Virus record (IMG/VR): IMGVR_UViG_3300033149_005717 | Location: 1-31,365 of that record | Strand: one strand, 5' to 3' | DNA from: a virus | Length of the DNA: 31,365 nt | Shown here: positions 4,055 through 20,737 of the stretch, in pieces | Position numbering within the stretch: the stretch's first letter is position 1 | Layout: each line of letters begins with the position of its first letter | Program-made: the position numbers and the translations under genes | Notes under the pieces: generated by a model | What the model saw: the letters and a program-made list of their open reading frames with translations, nothing else | What the model was told of the DNA's origin: nothing | Database searches by the model: none

Positions 4055-4657
4055 TTGTCAAGCAACGCGGAGCCAAAAAAATCAACAGAAGGGGTGCTAA
4101 GAATTGTCTGTGCGAATTGCGGGGCGCGGTTGAAAATACCGAGCGACTACGTAGGTCGAGAGGCGAAGTGTCCTAAATGCCGCAAGCCTTTTCGGGTCGC
4201 CGCTCCCCAATCGCGGCCAATGATGACTGCCCACCCAACAACGATCAGTGCCGCGCCAAATCAGTCACTTCGCCCCCAAGAACCCGAAGTCGAGCCCGCG
4301 AAACAGATCGCAGAACCCAAGTGTTTGCTGTGCGGGGGATCGCTTGAAAAACGCCGACCAAATACGTGGGCGGCGATCGCCGCAAAGATAACGGCAGGAA
4401 CGGCCATTGTTTTGCTTGCAATAACGATTATTTCGTTTGTATTAGGCCTCCTTACGCCATTTCTTAGGCCGGCCTTTGAAGATGTATCCCTTTCGTATGC
4501 TGTTTCTCGCGGCTCCTTGGCCGGAGAAATGTTAATTGGAATCTTTATCTTTGCGATGCTGTTTGTTCCTGTTTGTGCGTGGGCCGCTATTTTGCGTGGC
4601 TTCGACCGTCGCGTGTGGCGATGCAAAAACTGCGGGGCAACATTTGAAAGATTGTGA
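4055..4657 (+). CDS. Zinc-ribbon membrane protein of planctomycete type
   Basis: 200 residues from a TTG (GGAAG upstream); a GTG at 4094 is an in-frame alternative. Domains in order: a zinc ribbon with C19/C22 and C39/C42 (CANCGARLKIP, then KCPKCRKPFRV), a Pro/Gln-rich linker, a CLLC pair at 90-93, two transmembrane helices (about 107-134 and 158-180), and a final CKNC pair at 190-193. The first ribbon closely follows the 'CxxCGAxLKxPxxxxGxxxxCPKC' pattern common in planctomycete proteins, often next to membrane segments. Function unknown. It reads toward the coiled-coil membrane gene and probably shares its transcript. Confidence 0.7.
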   Translation: MSSNAEPKKSTEGVLRIVCANCGARLKIPSDYVGREAKCPKCRKPFRVAAPQSRPMMTAHPTTISAAPNQSLRPQEPEVEPAKQIAEPKCLLCGGSLEKRRPNTWAAIAAKITAGTAIVLLAITIISFVLGLLTPFLRPAFEDVSLSYAVSRGSLAGEMLIGIFIFAMLFVPVCAWAAILRGFDRRVWRCKNCGATFERL

Positions 4658-5709: not shown

Positions 5710-6093
5710 ATGGGCCGGGGCGCTCGGAATCGTCGGCATCGCGCGTTTCGCTGTGTTATCTATTATTCACGCAAAGACAAGTGCTGGGTTGCTCACAGCC
5801 TTGATTTGGATCAAATTGGCACCGGAGATTGTGTGCTTGATGCCCTTGTTGGATTACTTCGGGCCGTCGATCACGTTTATCATTACGCCCAGAAGGACCC
5901 CAGTCTTTGCGTATATCGCGATGCGCCCGATTCTGTTTGGGATATGTTCAAAACGGCGCAGCAGTTGCCGGGCGAGATTTTCGAGATCGCCCACAAGATA
6001 GTGCATCATACTTGGCCGGAGGATATACACGCCGATTTCGATACCAAGAAAAACCAGAAATTCAAACATCAGCTTAAACCGGCAATGGCATAA
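5710..6093 (+). CDS. HicB-like antitoxin
   Basis: 127 residues. The N-terminal half has the HicB fold pattern: a strand (RCVIYYSRKDK), then CWVAHSLDLDQIGTGDC, then a helix (VLDALVGLLRAVDHVYHY). The C-terminal half is unusual; it lacks an obvious HTH or RHH and ends in a Lys/Gln-rich tail. A very strong ribosome site (GGAAGGAGG) precedes the ATG. The TAA overlaps the next ATG by one base (TAATG), so antitoxin and toxin are coupled in HicB-HicA order, the reverse of the most common order. It should neutralise the downstream partner; as phage cargo it may stabilise lysogeny or act against other phages (inference). Confidence 0.65.
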   Translation: MGRGARNRRHRAFRCVIYYSRKDKCWVAHSLDLDQIGTGDCVLDALVGLLRAVDHVYHYAQKDPSLCVYRDAPDSVWDMFKTAQQLPGEIFEIAHKIVHHTWPEDIHADFDTKKNQKFKHQLKPAMA

Positions 6094-6341
6094 TGACTCG
6101 CCCAACGATAACTTGGGCACAGGTCCGGAGATATTTTACCCGTCGTGGCTACTTGATCAAATCTCGCGGAGGCGACAAGATCATCCAAGCACCACGCGAG
6201 CAAACTTCTTCTGGTAAACGCAACCAGGTCGTAATTGGCCATAAATGCTGCAACCAACACAACGCTGTCGTTTATTCCAGCTATCTAAGTGCGCTACACA
6301 GGGCTTTCGGTGTCACGCGAAACGATATTCTCAGGGGATAA
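6093..6341 (+). CDS. HicA-like protein lacking the usual catalytic His
   Basis: 82 residues with the layout of the HicA/YcfA double-stranded-RNA-binding-like fold: a first helix (TWAQVRRYFTRRGYLIKS), then GGDKIIQAP, a strand ending in VVIGHKC, and a last helix (SALHRAFGVTRNDIL). In HicA toxins the segment after the first helix reads GSH and its His cleaves mRNA. Here that place is GGDK, with Lys29. His50 aligns with the later conserved His. It is either an inactive or altered toxin, or a relative that binds RNA without cutting it. It is coupled to the HicB-like gene. Confidence 0.55.
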   Translation: MTRPTITWAQVRRYFTRRGYLIKSRGGDKIIQAPREQTSSGKRNQVVIGHKCCNQHNAVVYSSYLSALHRAFGVTRNDILRG

Positions 6342-12238: not shown

Positions 12239-13717
12239 TTAGCTAAACGCGGTAATTGCCAATTCGGGCATTATTGCCGGCGCGACCTTGAACCGGCCTT
12301 CCAATCTTTCCCAGGCCATCTCAAGGGCAGTCAGAGAATCTTTCATTTTTTCCTGGAGCTTCGTTTGCCGTTCGGCGTTCCGCGCCATTTTCTGGGTCAA
12401 ATCAAATTCGCGCCCGGGCGCAAAGGTGAGAAAGCGCGCCTCTATGGGATGCAACGTCCGCTTGACACTCGCAACCAATTGCTGAATAGCATCGGCTACG
12501 CCACCTGCTGCGCCACCTGGCGCCTCGCCTGGTGCGCTTGGCACTCGCGGGCCTCCGGCAATTGCGGCAAGCCTGGCTTCAAGTTTGGCAAAGGCTTCGT
12601 CGGCTTTTTTTGCCAAATCTTCGGGCATCAACCTACGTATTTTGGCGAAGGTCTGGGCTCGTATTAGTTCAAGTTCTGCGCGGTAATCAATTGGGGCCGC
12701 AAACCGACTTGATGAGTCGAACCCCCACTTTTCCTTAAATGCGAGCCAAAATGCCTTTGGCCAAATCATTGCCGCCGAATCCCGGAATCCACCAAGCCAT
12801 TTATCGGCAGCCATCTGGCCAAGTATCTTCATACTTCGGGCAAAACCGATCATTAGCTCAGTTGCCGCGTCCAGCGCAAAAGATAGACCGGATTTCCAAT
12901 CAATTTTGAGGTAGTCGATAAAGGCGACAAATACATCCTTAATCAGCCCCATATATGCTATGGCTTTTTGCGCCCATATCCCGATTTGTTCTTTATTGTC
13001 TATCGCCCATTGCTTTACTCGCTCGGCCCAGTCCTTGAAGACCGGCATAAGGGCTGCGCCGATCTCCTCTTTGATGTCCCCGAGAACATTTCGCATTTGT
13101 GTGACGGTGCCGACATAGGTTTTCGTCTCGCCCTCGGCCAGCTTGAAGTTGCGCGCCCCTATTTCTAATACCTTGTTGAATTTCTGCTGGGCATCGAGGC
13201 CCTCTTCGAGTTTGATGCCATAGCGAGTCAGGGTGCTTGTATCACCGACTGCGGCACGAGCCACCAATCGCATCGCGCCGGCAAGTTCTATCTTGTATGC
13301 TTTTGAAAGACCGATCGCCGCTTTAACGCCCTTCTTGAGCATTTCGCCGTGCAGCTTGCCCATTGCCGCGCCCATCGCCGCAAGTTCGAGGACCTGCTCG
13401 TCGCCGAGCGTCGTAATTTTCTGGATTTCCCCGGCCCATTCCTGCATATCGCGAACGTTCTCGGTCGTCGCTTGGCCGATAAGCGCATAGGCATCGACAA
13501 GCGACTGCACCGCTTGTTCTTGGCGACCAAAGGCCGCAAGGGATTCCTGGACGAAATTCTTGACGGCTCGCGCCGAAAAATACACCGCTGCCATCGCAGC
13601 AGCCTTGCGAATCATCGACCCCATAGACAAGGCGCTCGAGCCAATCAGTTTGAATTTCTTGCTCGCATCATCCCTGGCCTTGATAGCAACGTTGACCGTA
13701 TTTCTTGTTGCTGCCAT
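12239..13717 (-). CDS. Tail tape measure protein
   Basis: 492 residues. The N-terminus (NTVNVAIKARDDASKKFKLIG, then AAAMAAVYFSARAVKNFVQE) and the following helical region (QEWAGEIQKITTLGDEQVLE, AVGDTSTLTRYGIKL, KTYVGTVTQMRNVLGDIKEE) are typical of phage tape measures: long amphipathic helices with a hydrophobic centre. It sets tail length and is ejected with DNA. It is short for the family; at about 1.5 angstrom per residue it implies a tail near 75 nm. It follows the chaperone pair by one base, as in lambda H. Confidence 0.85.
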   Translation of the reverse strand: MAATRNTVNVAIKARDDASKKFKLIGSSALSMGSMIRKAAAMAAVYFSARAVKNFVQESLAAFGRQEQAVQSLVDAYALIGQATTENVRDMQEWAGEIQKITTLGDEQVLELAAMGAAMGKLHGEMLKKGVKAAIGLSKAYKIELAGAMRLVARAAVGDTSTLTRYGIKLEEGLDAQQKFNKVLEIGARNFKLAEGETKTYVGTVTQMRNVLGDIKEEIGAALMPVFKDWAERVKQWAIDNKEQIGIWAQKAIAYMGLIKDVFVAFIDYLKIDWKSGLSFALDAATELMIGFARSMKILGQMAADKWLGGFRDSAAMIWPKAFWLAFKEKWGFDSSSRFAAPIDYRAELELIRAQTFAKIRRLMPEDLAKKADEAFAKLEARLAAIAGGPRVPSAPGEAPGGAAGGVADAIQQLVASVKRTLHPIEARFLTFAPGREFDLTQKMARNAERQTKLQEKMKDSLTALEMAWERLEGRFKVAPAIMPELAITAFS

Positions 13718-13718
13718 T

Positions 13719-14072
13719 TCAGTTCAGAATCCCCAATTTACTCTTCCAATATCTTTCTTCCGCCCATATAAATTGACACGCCGCCAGAAAAATCTGTGCC
13801 TGGTCGAGCACTCCGCCCATAACCGGAGGCAGTCCCTTCTCGTATAACGCCGCATACTCGATGACCTGCCAGACGTCGCGCGTCACGTATTGCTGTGGGC
13901 ACATAGTTACGTCTAAATATCCCTTGCCATCGCACTGCTCGCATCCGGCGCCGTTGCAATTGAGGCAATCCATTTGAATCGGTTGCATCTTGTCCGGTAC
14001 GTCCTTGCATCTTTTTATTCCTCTGCATTGTTTGCAGAGTTGCCCGTACTTGAGAGCGACGCCGACTCGGAT
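13719..14072 (-). CDS. Tail assembly chaperone, frameshift extension (gpT-like)
   Basis: This -1 frame is open without a stop from the nine-A run at 14072-14080 to 13719, adding 117 residues to the first 120 of the upstream chaperone (fusion of 237). An ATG at 13988 exists but has no ribosome site, so frameshifting is the better explanation. The joined part has six paired or single Cys (LCKQC, RC, DCLNC, GCEQCDGKG) like a DnaJ-type zinc ribbon, then a helical end (EYAALYEKGLPPVMGG, FLAACQFIWAEERYWKSKLG). In lambda the G-T fusion binds tail tube protein and the tape measure during assembly. Confidence 0.7.
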   Translation of the reverse strand: MRVGVALKYGQLCKQCRGIKRCKDVPDKMQPIQMDCLNCNGAGCEQCDGKGYLDVTMCPQQYVTRDVWQVIEYAALYEKGLPPVMGGVLDQAQIFLAACQFIWAEERYWKSKLGILN

Positions 14073-14431
14073 TTTTTTTTGTCCTCTAATGTCGGATACT
14101 GGCCCGCATATAGCTGTTGTGCCAATTCCATCGCCTCTTGCATACTCATCACTTCAGGCAAGCGCTGCGGATCGAAAGGTATCGGGTTGCCGTCCCGGTC
14201 TCGGATGTTCTTCCAATCGACCAGTCCAGTTGCTGCGGCCTCGAAAATGCGCTTGATTGCCTCCGAACCGCTCGACGATTGCTCCAGTCGGTCGAGCAAG
14301 TCCGCGAGTTCCATCTGTTGCAAGCCGGTCAAATAGTGGTAGATGAATACCGGCCGCTCGGCCTCCGGGCGATCGGCGTCGCTTGTCAGGCTCAATTCAA
14401 ATTTTGCGTTTGGATTTGTCGCCAGCGGCAT
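14015..14431 (-). CDS. Tail assembly chaperone (gpG-like)
   Basis: 138 residues, acidic, mostly helical after a short beta start (FELSLTSDADRPEAERPVFIYHYLTG). It lies between tail tube and tape measure genes, the place of lambda G. The codons for DKKKS contain nine consecutive A, where some ribosomes would slip to -1 and make the longer product. The unshifted product ends NSANNAEE soon after. It should coat the tape measure before the tube polymerises. Confidence 0.7.
   Translation of the reverse strand: MPLATNPNAKFELSLTSDADRPEAERPVFIYHYLTGLQQMELADLLDRLEQSSSGSEAIKRIFEAAATGLVDWKNIRDRDGNPIPFDPQRLPEVMSMQEAMELAQQLYAGQYPTLEDKKKSESASLSSTGNSANNAEE
14072..14080 (-). promoter_or_regulatory. Slippery A9 run for -1 programmed frameshift
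   Basis: On the minus strand C-AAAAAAAAA-T read as GAC AAA AAA AAA TCC. A -1 slip gives AAA ATC and enters the downstream open frame. Position and effect match the programmed shift of tail chaperone genes. Confidence 0.7.
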
Positions 14432-14582
14432 CTTTGACTTTCTCCAGGTATTTCTTCTGTGTCTCGTCGTCCAACGACCGCCAGATCGTCAATATCTGGT
14501 CGTCTGTGGCATTTTTGAGGCCGCCCCGATGCTTCGTAACGGCCTTGCGGATTTGCGTTATGCCTGCCATTGATATATTCAT
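14397..14582 (-). CDS. Small helical protein between tail tube and chaperone
   Basis: 61 residues from ATG 14582, preceded by GGAG nine bases upstream. A longer frame from 14699 would overlap the tail tube gene and is rejected. The protein is basic and helical (ITQIRKAVTKHRGGLKNATD, then WRSLDDETQKKYLEKVKDAA) with a KSKRK end. It overlaps the chaperone start by about 35 bases. Function unknown; it may be part of the chaperone system. The ribosome site upstream is duplicated. Confidence 0.55.
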   Translation of the reverse strand: MNISMAGITQIRKAVTKHRGGLKNATDDQILTIWRSLDDETQKKYLEKVKDAAGDKSKRKI

Positions 14583-14617
14583 TGGTGTATCTCCTTTATT
14601 TGGTGTATCTCCTTTAT
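14582..14617 (-). repeat. Perfect 18-bp tandem duplication carrying a ribosome-binding site
   Basis: Two identical 18-bp units (14582-14599 and 14600-14617), each containing AAAGGAGATACACC. They give the following small gene two ribosome sites in a row. The tail tube stop lies inside the upstream copy. Confidence 0.9.
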
Positions 14618-15531
14618 GAGGTCGCAACGGCAATCGAGATTGCATCGTCGCCGCTGTTATTATTGAGTTGTCCGGTGACATCGTAGATGAGTATCCCATC
14701 GCGGTCGCCTTCTGGTATCTCCCGGTATTGCAACTTGGGCGCCGAGATAGTTATCTCCTTGCCAGCCCCGCTGCCGACAACGATGCTCAGGGCAGCCTCC
14801 GTGCCCGCAAGCCATATCCCATTGATGTCGTAAATGGCGACCTGCTCGGCCTCCAGGTCGCAGCCGAAAGTCGGTTCGTAGTCCACTATTTCGGCGTGAG
14901 CGATTCCGCTGGTAGTGGTCATATCTTCACGGAGTTTTATGCTGGCGCCGAGGTCGATCGTAAACCGGCTGACTTTCCGGGCTGTGCCACCGATTGTAAA
15001 CGTCGCGCCGATTAGCAATGGGGGAGGTTCGCTGCCGGGCGAGAACGCAGGCAAAGCCATATCCGCAGGCGACATCCAAATACCCTGAAAATCGAAATTG
15101 CAGATAATGCGCCGGGCTGATGCGCTCTCCAGGGTTACATTCCCCATCGCCCCGTAAATGGTCTTACAGATACCGTCCTCGTAGACGCGAATCGTGACGG
15201 ATTTATGGTCACTTACATCCGAACTTGGGGCGTATGTCTCGGAGCTATTCTTCAGCCCGCAACCCTGAAGCAGAATCGCCAGGCCCTCGTCCATTCCATC
15301 TGTGCCATTCCCGCGCAGCTCGGCTGAGCACGTGAATGTTCCGGTTCTTTCGCCGACGATGCCGGCCACTGCGTTACCGAGGTAATTACCCGACCCTCGC
15401 CGAGGCTCAAAAGGCGCGGTCGGTCGGATTTCAGGGTCGAACACAAGTACATCAGTGAAGCCGGTAGTTTCGGCCGTGCCTTTCGTGGCCTCCAGCTTCA
15501 CCTGAACAACTTTTTTACGAGTAAGCAACAT
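14614..15531 (-). CDS. Major tail tube protein
   Basis: 305 residues, beta-rich. It starts MLLTRKKVVQVKLEATKGTA, the pattern common to tail tube proteins ('K...i.vK.Et..Gta'), then GERTGTFTCSAELRGNG and further strand segments. AAGGAG precedes the ATG. Order (U-like protein before, chaperone after) is that of lambda V. No sheath gene adjoins it, which supports a non-contractile tail. Confidence 0.75.
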   Translation of the reverse strand: MLLTRKKVVQVKLEATKGTAETTGFTDVLVFDPEIRPTAPFEPRRGSGNYLGNAVAGIVGERTGTFTCSAELRGNGTDGMDEGLAILLQGCGLKNSSETYAPSSDVSDHKSVTIRVYEDGICKTIYGAMGNVTLESASARRIICNFDFQGIWMSPADMALPAFSPGSEPPPLLIGATFTIGGTARKVSRFTIDLGASIKLREDMTTTSGIAHAEIVDYEPTFGCDLEAEQVAIYDINGIWLAGTEAALSIVVGSGAGKEITISAPKLQYREIPEGDRDGILIYDVTGQLNNNSGDDAISIAVATS

Positions 15532-18004: not shown

Positions 18005-18847
18005 CTAATTGGGAATAGCGGTTATTTTGCAGCCTAACTTGGGTTCGACTTCAGCAGTAACCGACAGCTTTCGGCCAACCGCCGTTTCTAAATCGAAAAC
18101 ACGAAGCGCCGTCGGGGCAAAAATTTCGACGAGAGAAATCCTGCTTGGTCTCGCGAACATTGCGAAGGGCTCGCGGTAAAGCCAGGCCACTTCAGCGTCG
18201 GATAAAGCGCGCCTCCAGATCATCAGATGGTCAATGACGCCGTCGTAAAAAGTGGACCCATTACCCCTTGCCGCAATATAGAAATTCCCGCCAAAACTTG
18301 ACCAGTTGTCCGCCGAATATCCCCCGGAACCTATCAAAACCCCATTGAGATAAAGCCTATTTTCCAAGTTTCTCATACTGGCGACAACGTGATACCACCG
18401 GCCCGGCTCGATGGCCGTGTAGTACCGGCCTGTGTCCGCATTATCAATATCATCGTAGATGCCAAGATAATTGGCGGCGCTTTTGTAGAGGCCCCAGGCA
18501 TCGGCAGTAGAATAGAACTTGTTGAAGATCCATCCAGCAATGCCCGTCCCGGCATCCTTCACCCAAAGACTGACCGTTACGTCGCCGATTGTGTTCCAGG
18601 GGTCCGGTCCTCCACAATCGACATAGCCATCAGTCGCGAATTCTATGCCTAAACCGAACCGTGAAGGTTTCCAAGTGCTGCCACCATTCAAACTGCCGTT
18701 ATTTCGCCAGCCACTTGCGTCGTGTGCGGTAAGACCGCTCCTGTCGTTAAACGGCCAACAGGCGATCAACTCCTTCGTAAGCGGATGACCGAGTTGCAGC
18801 AGCCCTGCCAACGGTGGTTTTAGCTTGTAATCAGTAACAAAAAGCAT
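18005..18847 (-). CDS. LamG / concanavalin A-like lectin domain protein
   Basis: 280 residues. The LamG fold covers about 25-230: ELIACWPFNDRSG, HDASGWRNNGSL, FATDGYVDCGG, VTVSLWVKDAGT, WYHVVASMRN, LYLNGVLIGSG and IDHLMIWRRALSDAEVAWLY. That last segment is typical of phage-borne laminin-G domains. The C-terminal part (ALRVFDLETAVGRKLSVTAE) is separate. Such domains bind sugars; encoded among head genes, it may be displayed on the virion surface. Confidence 0.7.
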   Translation of the reverse strand: MLFVTDYKLKPPLAGLLQLGHPLTKELIACWPFNDRSGLTAHDASGWRNNGSLNGGSTWKPSRFGLGIEFATDGYVDCGGPDPWNTIGDVTVSLWVKDAGTGIAGWIFNKFYSTADAWGLYKSAANYLGIYDDIDNADTGRYYTAIEPGRWYHVVASMRNLENRLYLNGVLIGSGGYSADNWSSFGGNFYIAARGNGSTFYDGVIDHLMIWRRALSDAEVAWLYREPFAMFARPSRISLVEIFAPTALRVFDLETAVGRKLSVTAEVEPKLGCKITAIPN

Positions 18848-19351: not shown

Positions 19352-20737
19352 TTAAAAGCTACAAGTCGCATCTATCGTTACCCACTCATCGCCAGACCAC
19401 GCCAAAATCCAATAATCCGTCGTGGCGTCGAACGTTCCGACTTCGGGGTCGCTCGTTTTGTGATGTGTCACGGTGACGGTCGAAGAATTCGTCGCATCGC
19501 TCATCCGGATAACTTTGATGTCCCCTGGCATAAGACCGTCTGGTAATGTTGCCGTCACCGCCCCGCCGGATGAATCAAGGTAAGACGTGCTAAATTGCTG
19601 GAGCGTAACCGTACCCGTAACCGTCTCGTCGTCGTTCACGTTTCCTCTCACCGAGGTTGGGGCGACCGCGCCGGTTAGGGTAATCGCCCGCTGCCCCGAC
19701 GCCCGGTTGTAGAAGATATTGTTAGCTATCGAAATATTCGAGACAGCTTGGCCGTTATCCCAAATGGCGGGCTTTCCATTCGTGTTCGTAAAGCTAAAGT
19801 AGCAGTTGGAAATTATCACCCTACGTGCACCACCCGCCTGAAACTCAATCGCCCCGTAAGCCCCGTTATCCTGGTTCCAGGTGTTGAAAAAACAATTCGA
19901 TATAATCATCTCGACGGGTGTTTGTAAGTATAACTGAGTCCTTCTCGTATCCGAGAACCGGCAGTTGATGATGAAATGCTCCGACGCGACCGCGTAGATG
20001 TCTTGCTTGTTACCGCGAAAGTAGCAGTTCACAACCCAGTTCCGGTAATCACTCAGGTAGAGGGCCCCTGTCGCCGAGGCACAGTCTTCAATATCGCAGT
20101 TCTGAATCCAGGCTCCGTGACAGTTCAGCTTTATCGGGTACTCATACGGCAGGTAGAAAAACCCGCAGTGGTAAATGCAGAAATCGCCTTCGCTTGAAAT
20201 GTCCACCGCGATACTGCCCACCCCTACATAAGACTGGTAGGATGGCTGGCCGCAAAAACCTATCTCGTATAACCCCCCGAAGTACATCCCGGACGTCCCT
20301 GGATTGGTGCTATGGTACACAAACAGCGACGACGCCCCGCTGCCAGTGTTGCTCTCGCTCGGCACAATCATTGTCCCGACGTAGTTGTCTCCAGGGTATC
20401 CGCTCCAGTACCAGTTGACTCCAGCCCCTCTAAACACAATCGGCTTGTCTTCGACGAGGATGTTATCATCGAGGAAGAAGACACCGTGCAGGTAAATCTC
20501 GCCGCCCTCGCTGCTAATCGCGTCCACTGCCGCTTGAATCTCTTTCTCGTCGGCTGTGCCGTCACATACATAATCCGCCTGAGCCTTGACGTGTGCCGGT
20601 GCATTCGAGGCCGCCACCACGTATGTCGCCGTCCTGGCCTTGCGCGTAAAATCGTATCGTCCCCGCAAATTCAAATCGGCCCGCACGAGGCCGGGTGGAA
20701 GCAGCAAGAACAAGATGCACAATAGTCGCGTTTTCAT
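19352..20737 (-). CDS. Pectate-lyase-like beta-helix protein with signal peptide
   Basis: 461 residues. An N-terminal signal peptide is clear (MKTRLLCILFLLLPPGLVRA). Then VCDGTADEKEIQAAVDA, GGEIYLHGVFFL and a long right-handed beta-helix to about 370, with repeated NC/SNC turns (VVNCYFRGN, IINCRFSD, IISNCFFN, VIISNCYF). The C-terminal 80 residues (TATLPDGLMPGDIKVIRMSD, DYWILAWSGDEWVTI) are a small domain that also ends the decoration protein at 21475. Beta-helices of this kind cut or bind polysaccharide. A signal peptide is unusual for a virion protein: it may be an exported depolymerase or a cargo gene. Acidic catalytic residues cannot be assigned by eye. Confidence 0.65.
   Translation of the reverse strand: MKTRLLCILFLLLPPGLVRADLNLRGRYDFTRKARTATYVVAASNAPAHVKAQADYVCDGTADEKEIQAAVDAISSEGGEIYLHGVFFLDDNILVEDKPIVFRGAGVNWYWSGYPGDNYVGTMIVPSESNTGSGASSLFVYHSTNPGTSGMYFGGLYEIGFCGQPSYQSYVGVGSIAVDISSEGDFCIYHCGFFYLPYEYPIKLNCHGAWIQNCDIEDCASATGALYLSDYRNWVVNCYFRGNKQDIYAVASEHFIINCRFSDTRRTQLYLQTPVEMIISNCFFNTWNQDNGAYGAIEFQAGGARRVIISNCYFSFTNTNGKPAIWDNGQAVSNISIANNIFYNRASGQRAITLTGAVAPTSVRGNVNDDETVTGTVTLQQFSTSYLDSSGGAVTATLPDGLMPGDIKVIRMSDATNSSTVTVTHHKTSDPEVGTFDATTDYWILAWSGDEWVTIDATCSF

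Follow-up and report, generated by a model that had tools for sequence, protein, structure and literature searches.

A phage sequence of 31,365 bases (a virus record, the whole of which is called the window here) very probably encodes a tail assembly chaperone that is lengthened by programmed −1 frameshifting, with an extension that carries a probably zinc-binding Cys4 knuckle and that, by analogy with phage lambda, would recruit tail tube subunits. The late genes of the window all lie on the minus strand and comprise terminase, portal, capsid-protease fusion, tail completion, terminator, tube, chaperone and tape measure genes. Features of the chaperone locus and its neighbors, all on the minus strand, are as follows.

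12239..13717, minus strand: probable tape measure protein, 492 aa (position; weak match to PHROG 8125, tape-measure, E=0.0098; same order in annotated phages)
13719..14072, minus strand: −1 frame extension (T-like), 117 aa plus stop (homologue in metagenomic contig L027, E=8e-7)
13800..13835, minus strand: C-terminal motif GLPPxxGGxxxQ of the extension (alignment of 10 extensions)
13899..14036, minus strand: Cys module of the extension, C13 C16 C22 C36 C39 C44 C47 C58 (alignment of 10 extensions)
14015..14431, minus strand: tail assembly chaperone, short form (gpG-like), a 138-aa ORF between tube and tape measure (homologue in L027)
14021..14039, minus strand: RNA hairpin CUCUGCA-AACAA-UGCAGAG, candidate stimulator (z about −2 to −3)
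14072..14080, minus strand: A9 slip site, identical in the near relative IMGVR_UViG_3300021467_000011 (L002)
14614..15531, minus strand: tail tube protein, Phage_tube_2 (Pfam PF18906, E=4e-7; relatives)

Within the chaperone gene, the A9 run is read as GAC AAA AAA AAA TCC (D K K K S) and contains the heptamer A AAA AAA (14078-14072, minus), the sole in-phase heptamer in the gene. After the slip, the −1 frame reads IRVGVALKYGQLCKQC... and continues for 117 codons to a stop ending at 13719; upstream of the slip it is open as far as 14153. A slip would join the first 120 aa of the 138-aa short form to the extension, giving a fusion of 237 aa with the predicted junction sequence LEDKKKIR. This anatomy, at 14431-13719 on the minus strand, agrees in every element with the sequence-only reading of this DNA, which had described nine consecutive A residues in DKKK, an open −1 frame of 117 codons and a 237-residue fusion. 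The tape measure ATG directly follows the extension stop (TGAAATG), and, by analogy, the tube protein is the partner to which the T-like extension would be expected to bind.

By similarity alone, the chaperone half was recognized weakly, with a match to PHROG 313 (tail assembly chaperone) over residues 62–96 (35 aa, E=0.007) and, in an hhalign comparison with a mixed set of other chaperones, a weak match over 30 columns (E=7e-4, probability 27%). The chaperone of Rhodobacter phage RcKemmy matches PHROG 313 at 1e-10. Between the tube and chaperone genes is a small ORF (14397-14699, minus) that probably starts near 14582, would encode about 60 aa and overlaps the chaperone start. The same place in other phages also holds small, unrelated-looking ORFs, and comparison by eye revealed no likeness between the window ORF and those of JP1, L338C, RcZahn and others. 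Elsewhere in the window, genes for beta-helix and laminin-G-like proteins (19352-20737 and 18005-18847, minus) separate the capsid genes from the tail genes, an unusual location for what may be receptor-binding or decoration proteins, and a putative protein on the opposite strand (4055-4657, plus) has zinc-ribbon-like ends and apparent membrane segments, with Pfam matches below cut-off.

The A9 run alone means little, since the window contains two (the second at 6382-6374, minus) against 0.8 expected by chance. An off-frame stretch of 117 codons stays open approximately 1–1.5% of the time, and eleven window genes, 5175 codons in all, contain 8 in-phase X XXY YYZ heptamers as background. The combination of an in-phase heptamer, an open −1 frame, a location flanked by the tube and tape measure genes and one heptamer per relative is well beyond chance. 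The second A9 run is situated just past two adjacent small ORFs (5710-6341, plus) that appear HicB/HicA-like by eye and had no Pfam match at E 0.01.

Three lines of sequence evidence address the coding status of the −1 frame. In a codon usage model trained on the eleven window genes, the log-likelihood of the −1 frame was +7.8, versus −36 and −25 for the other frames. Comparison with the near relative showed 5 differing codons in the extension, 3 of them synonymous changes at the third position, while all 4 changed codons in an overlapping +1 ORF (14028-13738) would be non-synonymous; these substitutions are few, yet they point in the same direction. Finally, an HMM built from eight phages, with the window and its metagenomic relatives left out, ranked the −1 ORF first among 465 window ORFs (E=7e-6; next best 0.48). 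The agreement of codon usage, the near relative and the held-out HMM confirms, at the level of sequence, that the −1 frame is coding. The reading of the locus as a tail chaperone pair joined by a −1 frameshift is thereby upheld, on the strength of the tube/tape-measure position, the single in-phase heptamer in each relative and the coding −1 frame.

Relatives were identified by several routes. Among viral contigs, only the near-identical L002 was found, in which A9 and both frames are kept while 10 other bases in the gene differ. A pattern search with the extension in genome contigs and tblastn with the fusion in a phage collection found no relative, and alignment-based scans found nothing, no stretch being conserved enough. 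A capsid search reached L027, whose chaperone and extension are each approximately 29% identical to those of the window (extension E=8e-7); the two frames are offset by −1, with AGA AAT TTT ACG (A AAU UUU) in the overlap. A search with the tube gene yielded nine isolated phages, every one with the order tube, chaperone, −1 ORF, tape measure, and a search with the extension of Agrobacterium phage JP1 yielded Rhizobium and Rhodobacter phages. The capsid also led to RcKemmy, in which the gene order is the same and the chaperone is annotated as a join; through the RcKemmy extension two further phages were reached, Nostoc phage Nsp-JY21 and Synechococcus phage Sc-Yong805-1, whose sequences in this region are mutually identical. 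A further contig with a capsid 49% identical to that of the window has a different tail module and is uninformative on the chaperone locus.

In the resulting 19 loci (the window, two metagenomic contigs and 16 annotated phages), each chaperone gene has a single in-phase X XXY YYZ heptamer, which invariably falls within the −1 open overlap. The heptamer is A AAA AAC, G GGA AAC, A AAA AAG, A AAU UUU or A AAA AAA. Conservation of both the A run and the open −1 frame had been proposed as a check; the slip site and the open frame are conserved in 19/19 loci, but in the form of varied heptamers and not of an A run throughout. Relatives that lack a slip site and have a second ORF with its own start were also sought, and every relative examined keeps the slip site and two-frame layout. 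In most loci, the RNA that follows the slip has a more favorable fold than shuffled sequence (z < −2 in 12/19; window z = −2.27). The candidate hairpin in the window has 7 bp and sits 32 nt past the A run, which is far from the slip site.

Annotation of these loci is uneven. The genome paper for RcZahn (MW677529) reports that frameshift sequences were not clearly evident (PMC8601537). In that phage (L044 2495-2917), genes 27 and 28 overlap, GAA AAA AAC is present in phase (A AAA AAC) and a −1 Cys4 extension follows, so that on sequence grounds the statement can be questioned. Alteromonas phage P24 (L034 4236-4574) has a −1 extension with no annotated gene of its own, and the chaperone of Synechococcus phage S-LBS1 (L033 3934-4314) bears the evidently mistaken name of an ABC-type cobalamin/siderophore transport ATPase. 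PHROG 680, which holds extensions of the DUF1799 type, is named "tail length tape measure protein", a doubtful name.

From these features we infer that ribosomes shift frame at the A run and that the two products differ in abundance. A different route to the same protein is transcriptional slippage, in which the polymerase adds one A to A9 to give A10 mRNA; insertion of one A yields DKKKIRV, the same product as a ribosomal slip. In many bacterial genomes, selection against slippage first shows at A runs of nine, and a run of this length is used by Thermus dnaX (PMC1088944). Nevertheless, the heptamers at the same place in relatives (A AAA AAC, G GGA AAC, A AAA AAG, A AAU UUU) are of the ribosomal type and unsuited to polymerase slippage. 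Ribosomal slippage is preferred for this reason, and we consider it unlikely, though worth keeping in mind, that the fusion is made mainly by the polymerase. Both processes may contribute in the window phage.

We next consider the extension itself. It has 9 Cys among 117 residues (7.7%, versus 0–2.8% in other window proteins counted). Alignment of ten divergent extensions revealed an invariant CxxC-x(4-9)-C-x(10-35)-CP pattern followed by a GxLPxxGGxxxQ region, and every invariant column is present in the window extension, where the family-invariant cysteines are C36, C39, C44 and C58-P. The family is defined here by two motifs encoded in the −1 frame downstream of the chaperone, CxxC...C...CP and GxLPxxGGxxxQ. 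A second extension family, of RcKemmy-like and Nostoc/Synechococcus phages, has a compact CxxCxxxCxxCP; the RcKemmy and Nsp-JY21 extensions are 46% identical, and their C-terminal half belongs to PHROG 11212.

The sequence-only reading had likened the cysteine pairs to a DnaJ-type zinc ribbon and had regarded them as unusual in a gpT extension. Neither idea was borne out as stated. The DnaJ central zinc domain (PF00684) has four CxxCxGxG motifs, whereas the extension has two complete ones, in tandem, and reaches 11 bits where the cut-off is 32.7; its conserved core follows another Cys4 pattern. The DnaJ look comes from additional upstream cysteines and a doubled CxxC that the window has in common with L027. 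The Cys module is absent from DUF1799-type extensions but is conserved throughout a whole family of −1 extensions in diverse phages. The window extension matches neither DUF1799 (PF08809) nor PHROG 680, and profile comparison of the Cys family with DUF1799 extensions showed no convincing homology (hhalign E=0.09, 10 columns).

CxxC pairs accompanied by a further C and CP are a typical zinc-knuckle pattern, and tail assembly chaperones of the G/GT kind act in the reducing cytoplasm. On this sequence basis, the Cys4 module probably binds zinc. Alternatively, with the frameshift still real, the cysteines may be conserved for a different structural role that involves no zinc. PDB searches found no solved structure of the family. 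AlphaFold predictions, run on the extension by itself and with L002 and L027, were poor (pLDDT 49 and 45), of a quality at which zinc geometry is not visible. Since the pattern is typical of zinc knuckles and the compartment is a reducing one, we regard a role without metal as improbable, to about the same degree as a polymerase origin of the fusion. Foldseek with the first of these poor models returned no match below E=4. The best hit of the PDB sequence search was a tRNA ligase that shares a short Cys stretch (E=0.43), and this is not evidence.

Is slippage needed to make the Cys module? In L027, P24, JP1, RcTiptonus, RcKemmy and Nsp-JY21, the stretch from the slip to the final Cys of the motif contains no ATG, GTG or TTG in frame with the extension, and therefore only frameshifting can make the module in these relatives. 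In the window, the first ATG of the downstream ORF is at 13988, after three cysteines and before the four that are invariant in the family. The claim that this ATG lacks a ribosome site needs modification: an AAGGA core is present 13 nt upstream, with a best duplex of −6.0 kcal/mol versus −6.4 at the chaperone's own start, but its spacing is too far for a good ribosome site. Mechanical ORF calling also places the start of an 89-aa protein at 13988, and with the near-equal duplex energy this is the case for regarding the extension as an independent protein with no fusion. Such a reading is very unlikely given the poor spacing, the lack of any comparable start in L027 and several phages, and the conservation of −1 coding sequence upstream of the ATG (VGVALKYG in the window, VAVALSYG in L027). 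A separately started short product from 13988 may be made in the window phage; it would be without this N-terminal stretch.

That A9 is an assembly or sequencing error in what is really one continuous ORF is scarcely credible: homopolymer runs are error-prone, but the separate contig L002 keeps A9 and the two-frame layout though 10 other bases in the gene differ, and the layout is also preserved in other relatives that have no long runs.

We therefore return to a chaperone made in two forms by programmed frameshifting, for which the following scheme is proposed. The majority of ribosomes would end at 14015 and produce the 138-aa chaperone, which would coat the tape measure protein. A minority would slip −1 on A AAA AAA at 14078-14072 to produce the 237-aa chaperone, whose extra 117 aa consist of the Cys4 knuckle, additional CxxC pairs in the window phage and then the GLPPxxGGxxxQ segment. 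As in lambda gpGT, the extension would recruit tube subunits onto the chaperone-coated tape measure. According to a review (PMC5009743), it is the short chaperone of lambda that binds the tape measure; the tube protein is bound and recruited through the T-domain of the long form. A similar, tube-binding role for the window extension is likely by analogy because the place and architecture are the same and the tube gene adjoins.

The slip device itself is textbook knowledge and common to many phages. The less familiar part, and the part worth following, is a Cys4 module conserved in phages of very different bacteria. Limited searches of open-access literature found no description of a Cys module, zinc or CxxC in tail chaperone extensions. 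More tentatively, and with somewhat more doubt than belief, we suggest that these extensions constitute an undescribed, widespread family of frameshift-only zinc-knuckle T-domains, in which the zinc site would be found solely on the minority, frameshifted chaperone and would contact tube subunits or the tape measure. If this is true, tail assembly in these phages would be dependent on zinc. The T-domain, a little understood piece of the tail assembly machinery, would then perhaps be a zinc module in one broad lineage, which is testable. The signature CxxC...C...CP followed by GxLPxxGGxxxQ in the −1 frame also has a practical use, as it identifies frameshifted chaperones where they are unannotated (Alteromonas phage P24) or were reported without clear frameshift signals (RcZahn, PMC8601537).

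Comparison with known systems, by architecture and family searches, places the window beside lambda gpG/gpGT, which reportedly was established as a programmed −1 frameshift tail assembly chaperone by Xu, Hendrix and Duda in 2004. The device is the same; the lambda slip site differs from A AAA AAA within A9, and the window extension carries a Cys module. Cyanophage S-LBS1, Rhodobacter phage RC1 and the like have the same device in the same place and a homologous tail tube, with extensions of the DUF1799/PHROG 680 type that lack the Cys module. RcKemmy (gp15/gp16; MW677517) and Nsp-JY21 share head and tail gene order with the window; RcKemmy also has a homologous capsid-protease fusion, and its −1 join is annotated. 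The slip is G GGA AAC in RcKemmy and A AAA AAA in Nsp-JY21, and the extensions of both have a compact Cys4, unlike the window's spacing, and a C-terminal half outside the GxLPxxGG family to which the window belongs. Homologous extensions are those of Alteromonas phage P24, Agrobacterium phage JP1, Rhizobium phages L338C, RHph_I4 and RHph_TM16, Rhodobacter phages RcZahn and RcTiptonus, Microcystis phage Mae-JY22 and the metagenomic L027. These have the invariant Cys4, the GxLPxxGGxxxQ motif and the operon place of the window (22–33% identity where listed); their heptamers differ, and the extra Cys pairs of the window are found in L027 only.
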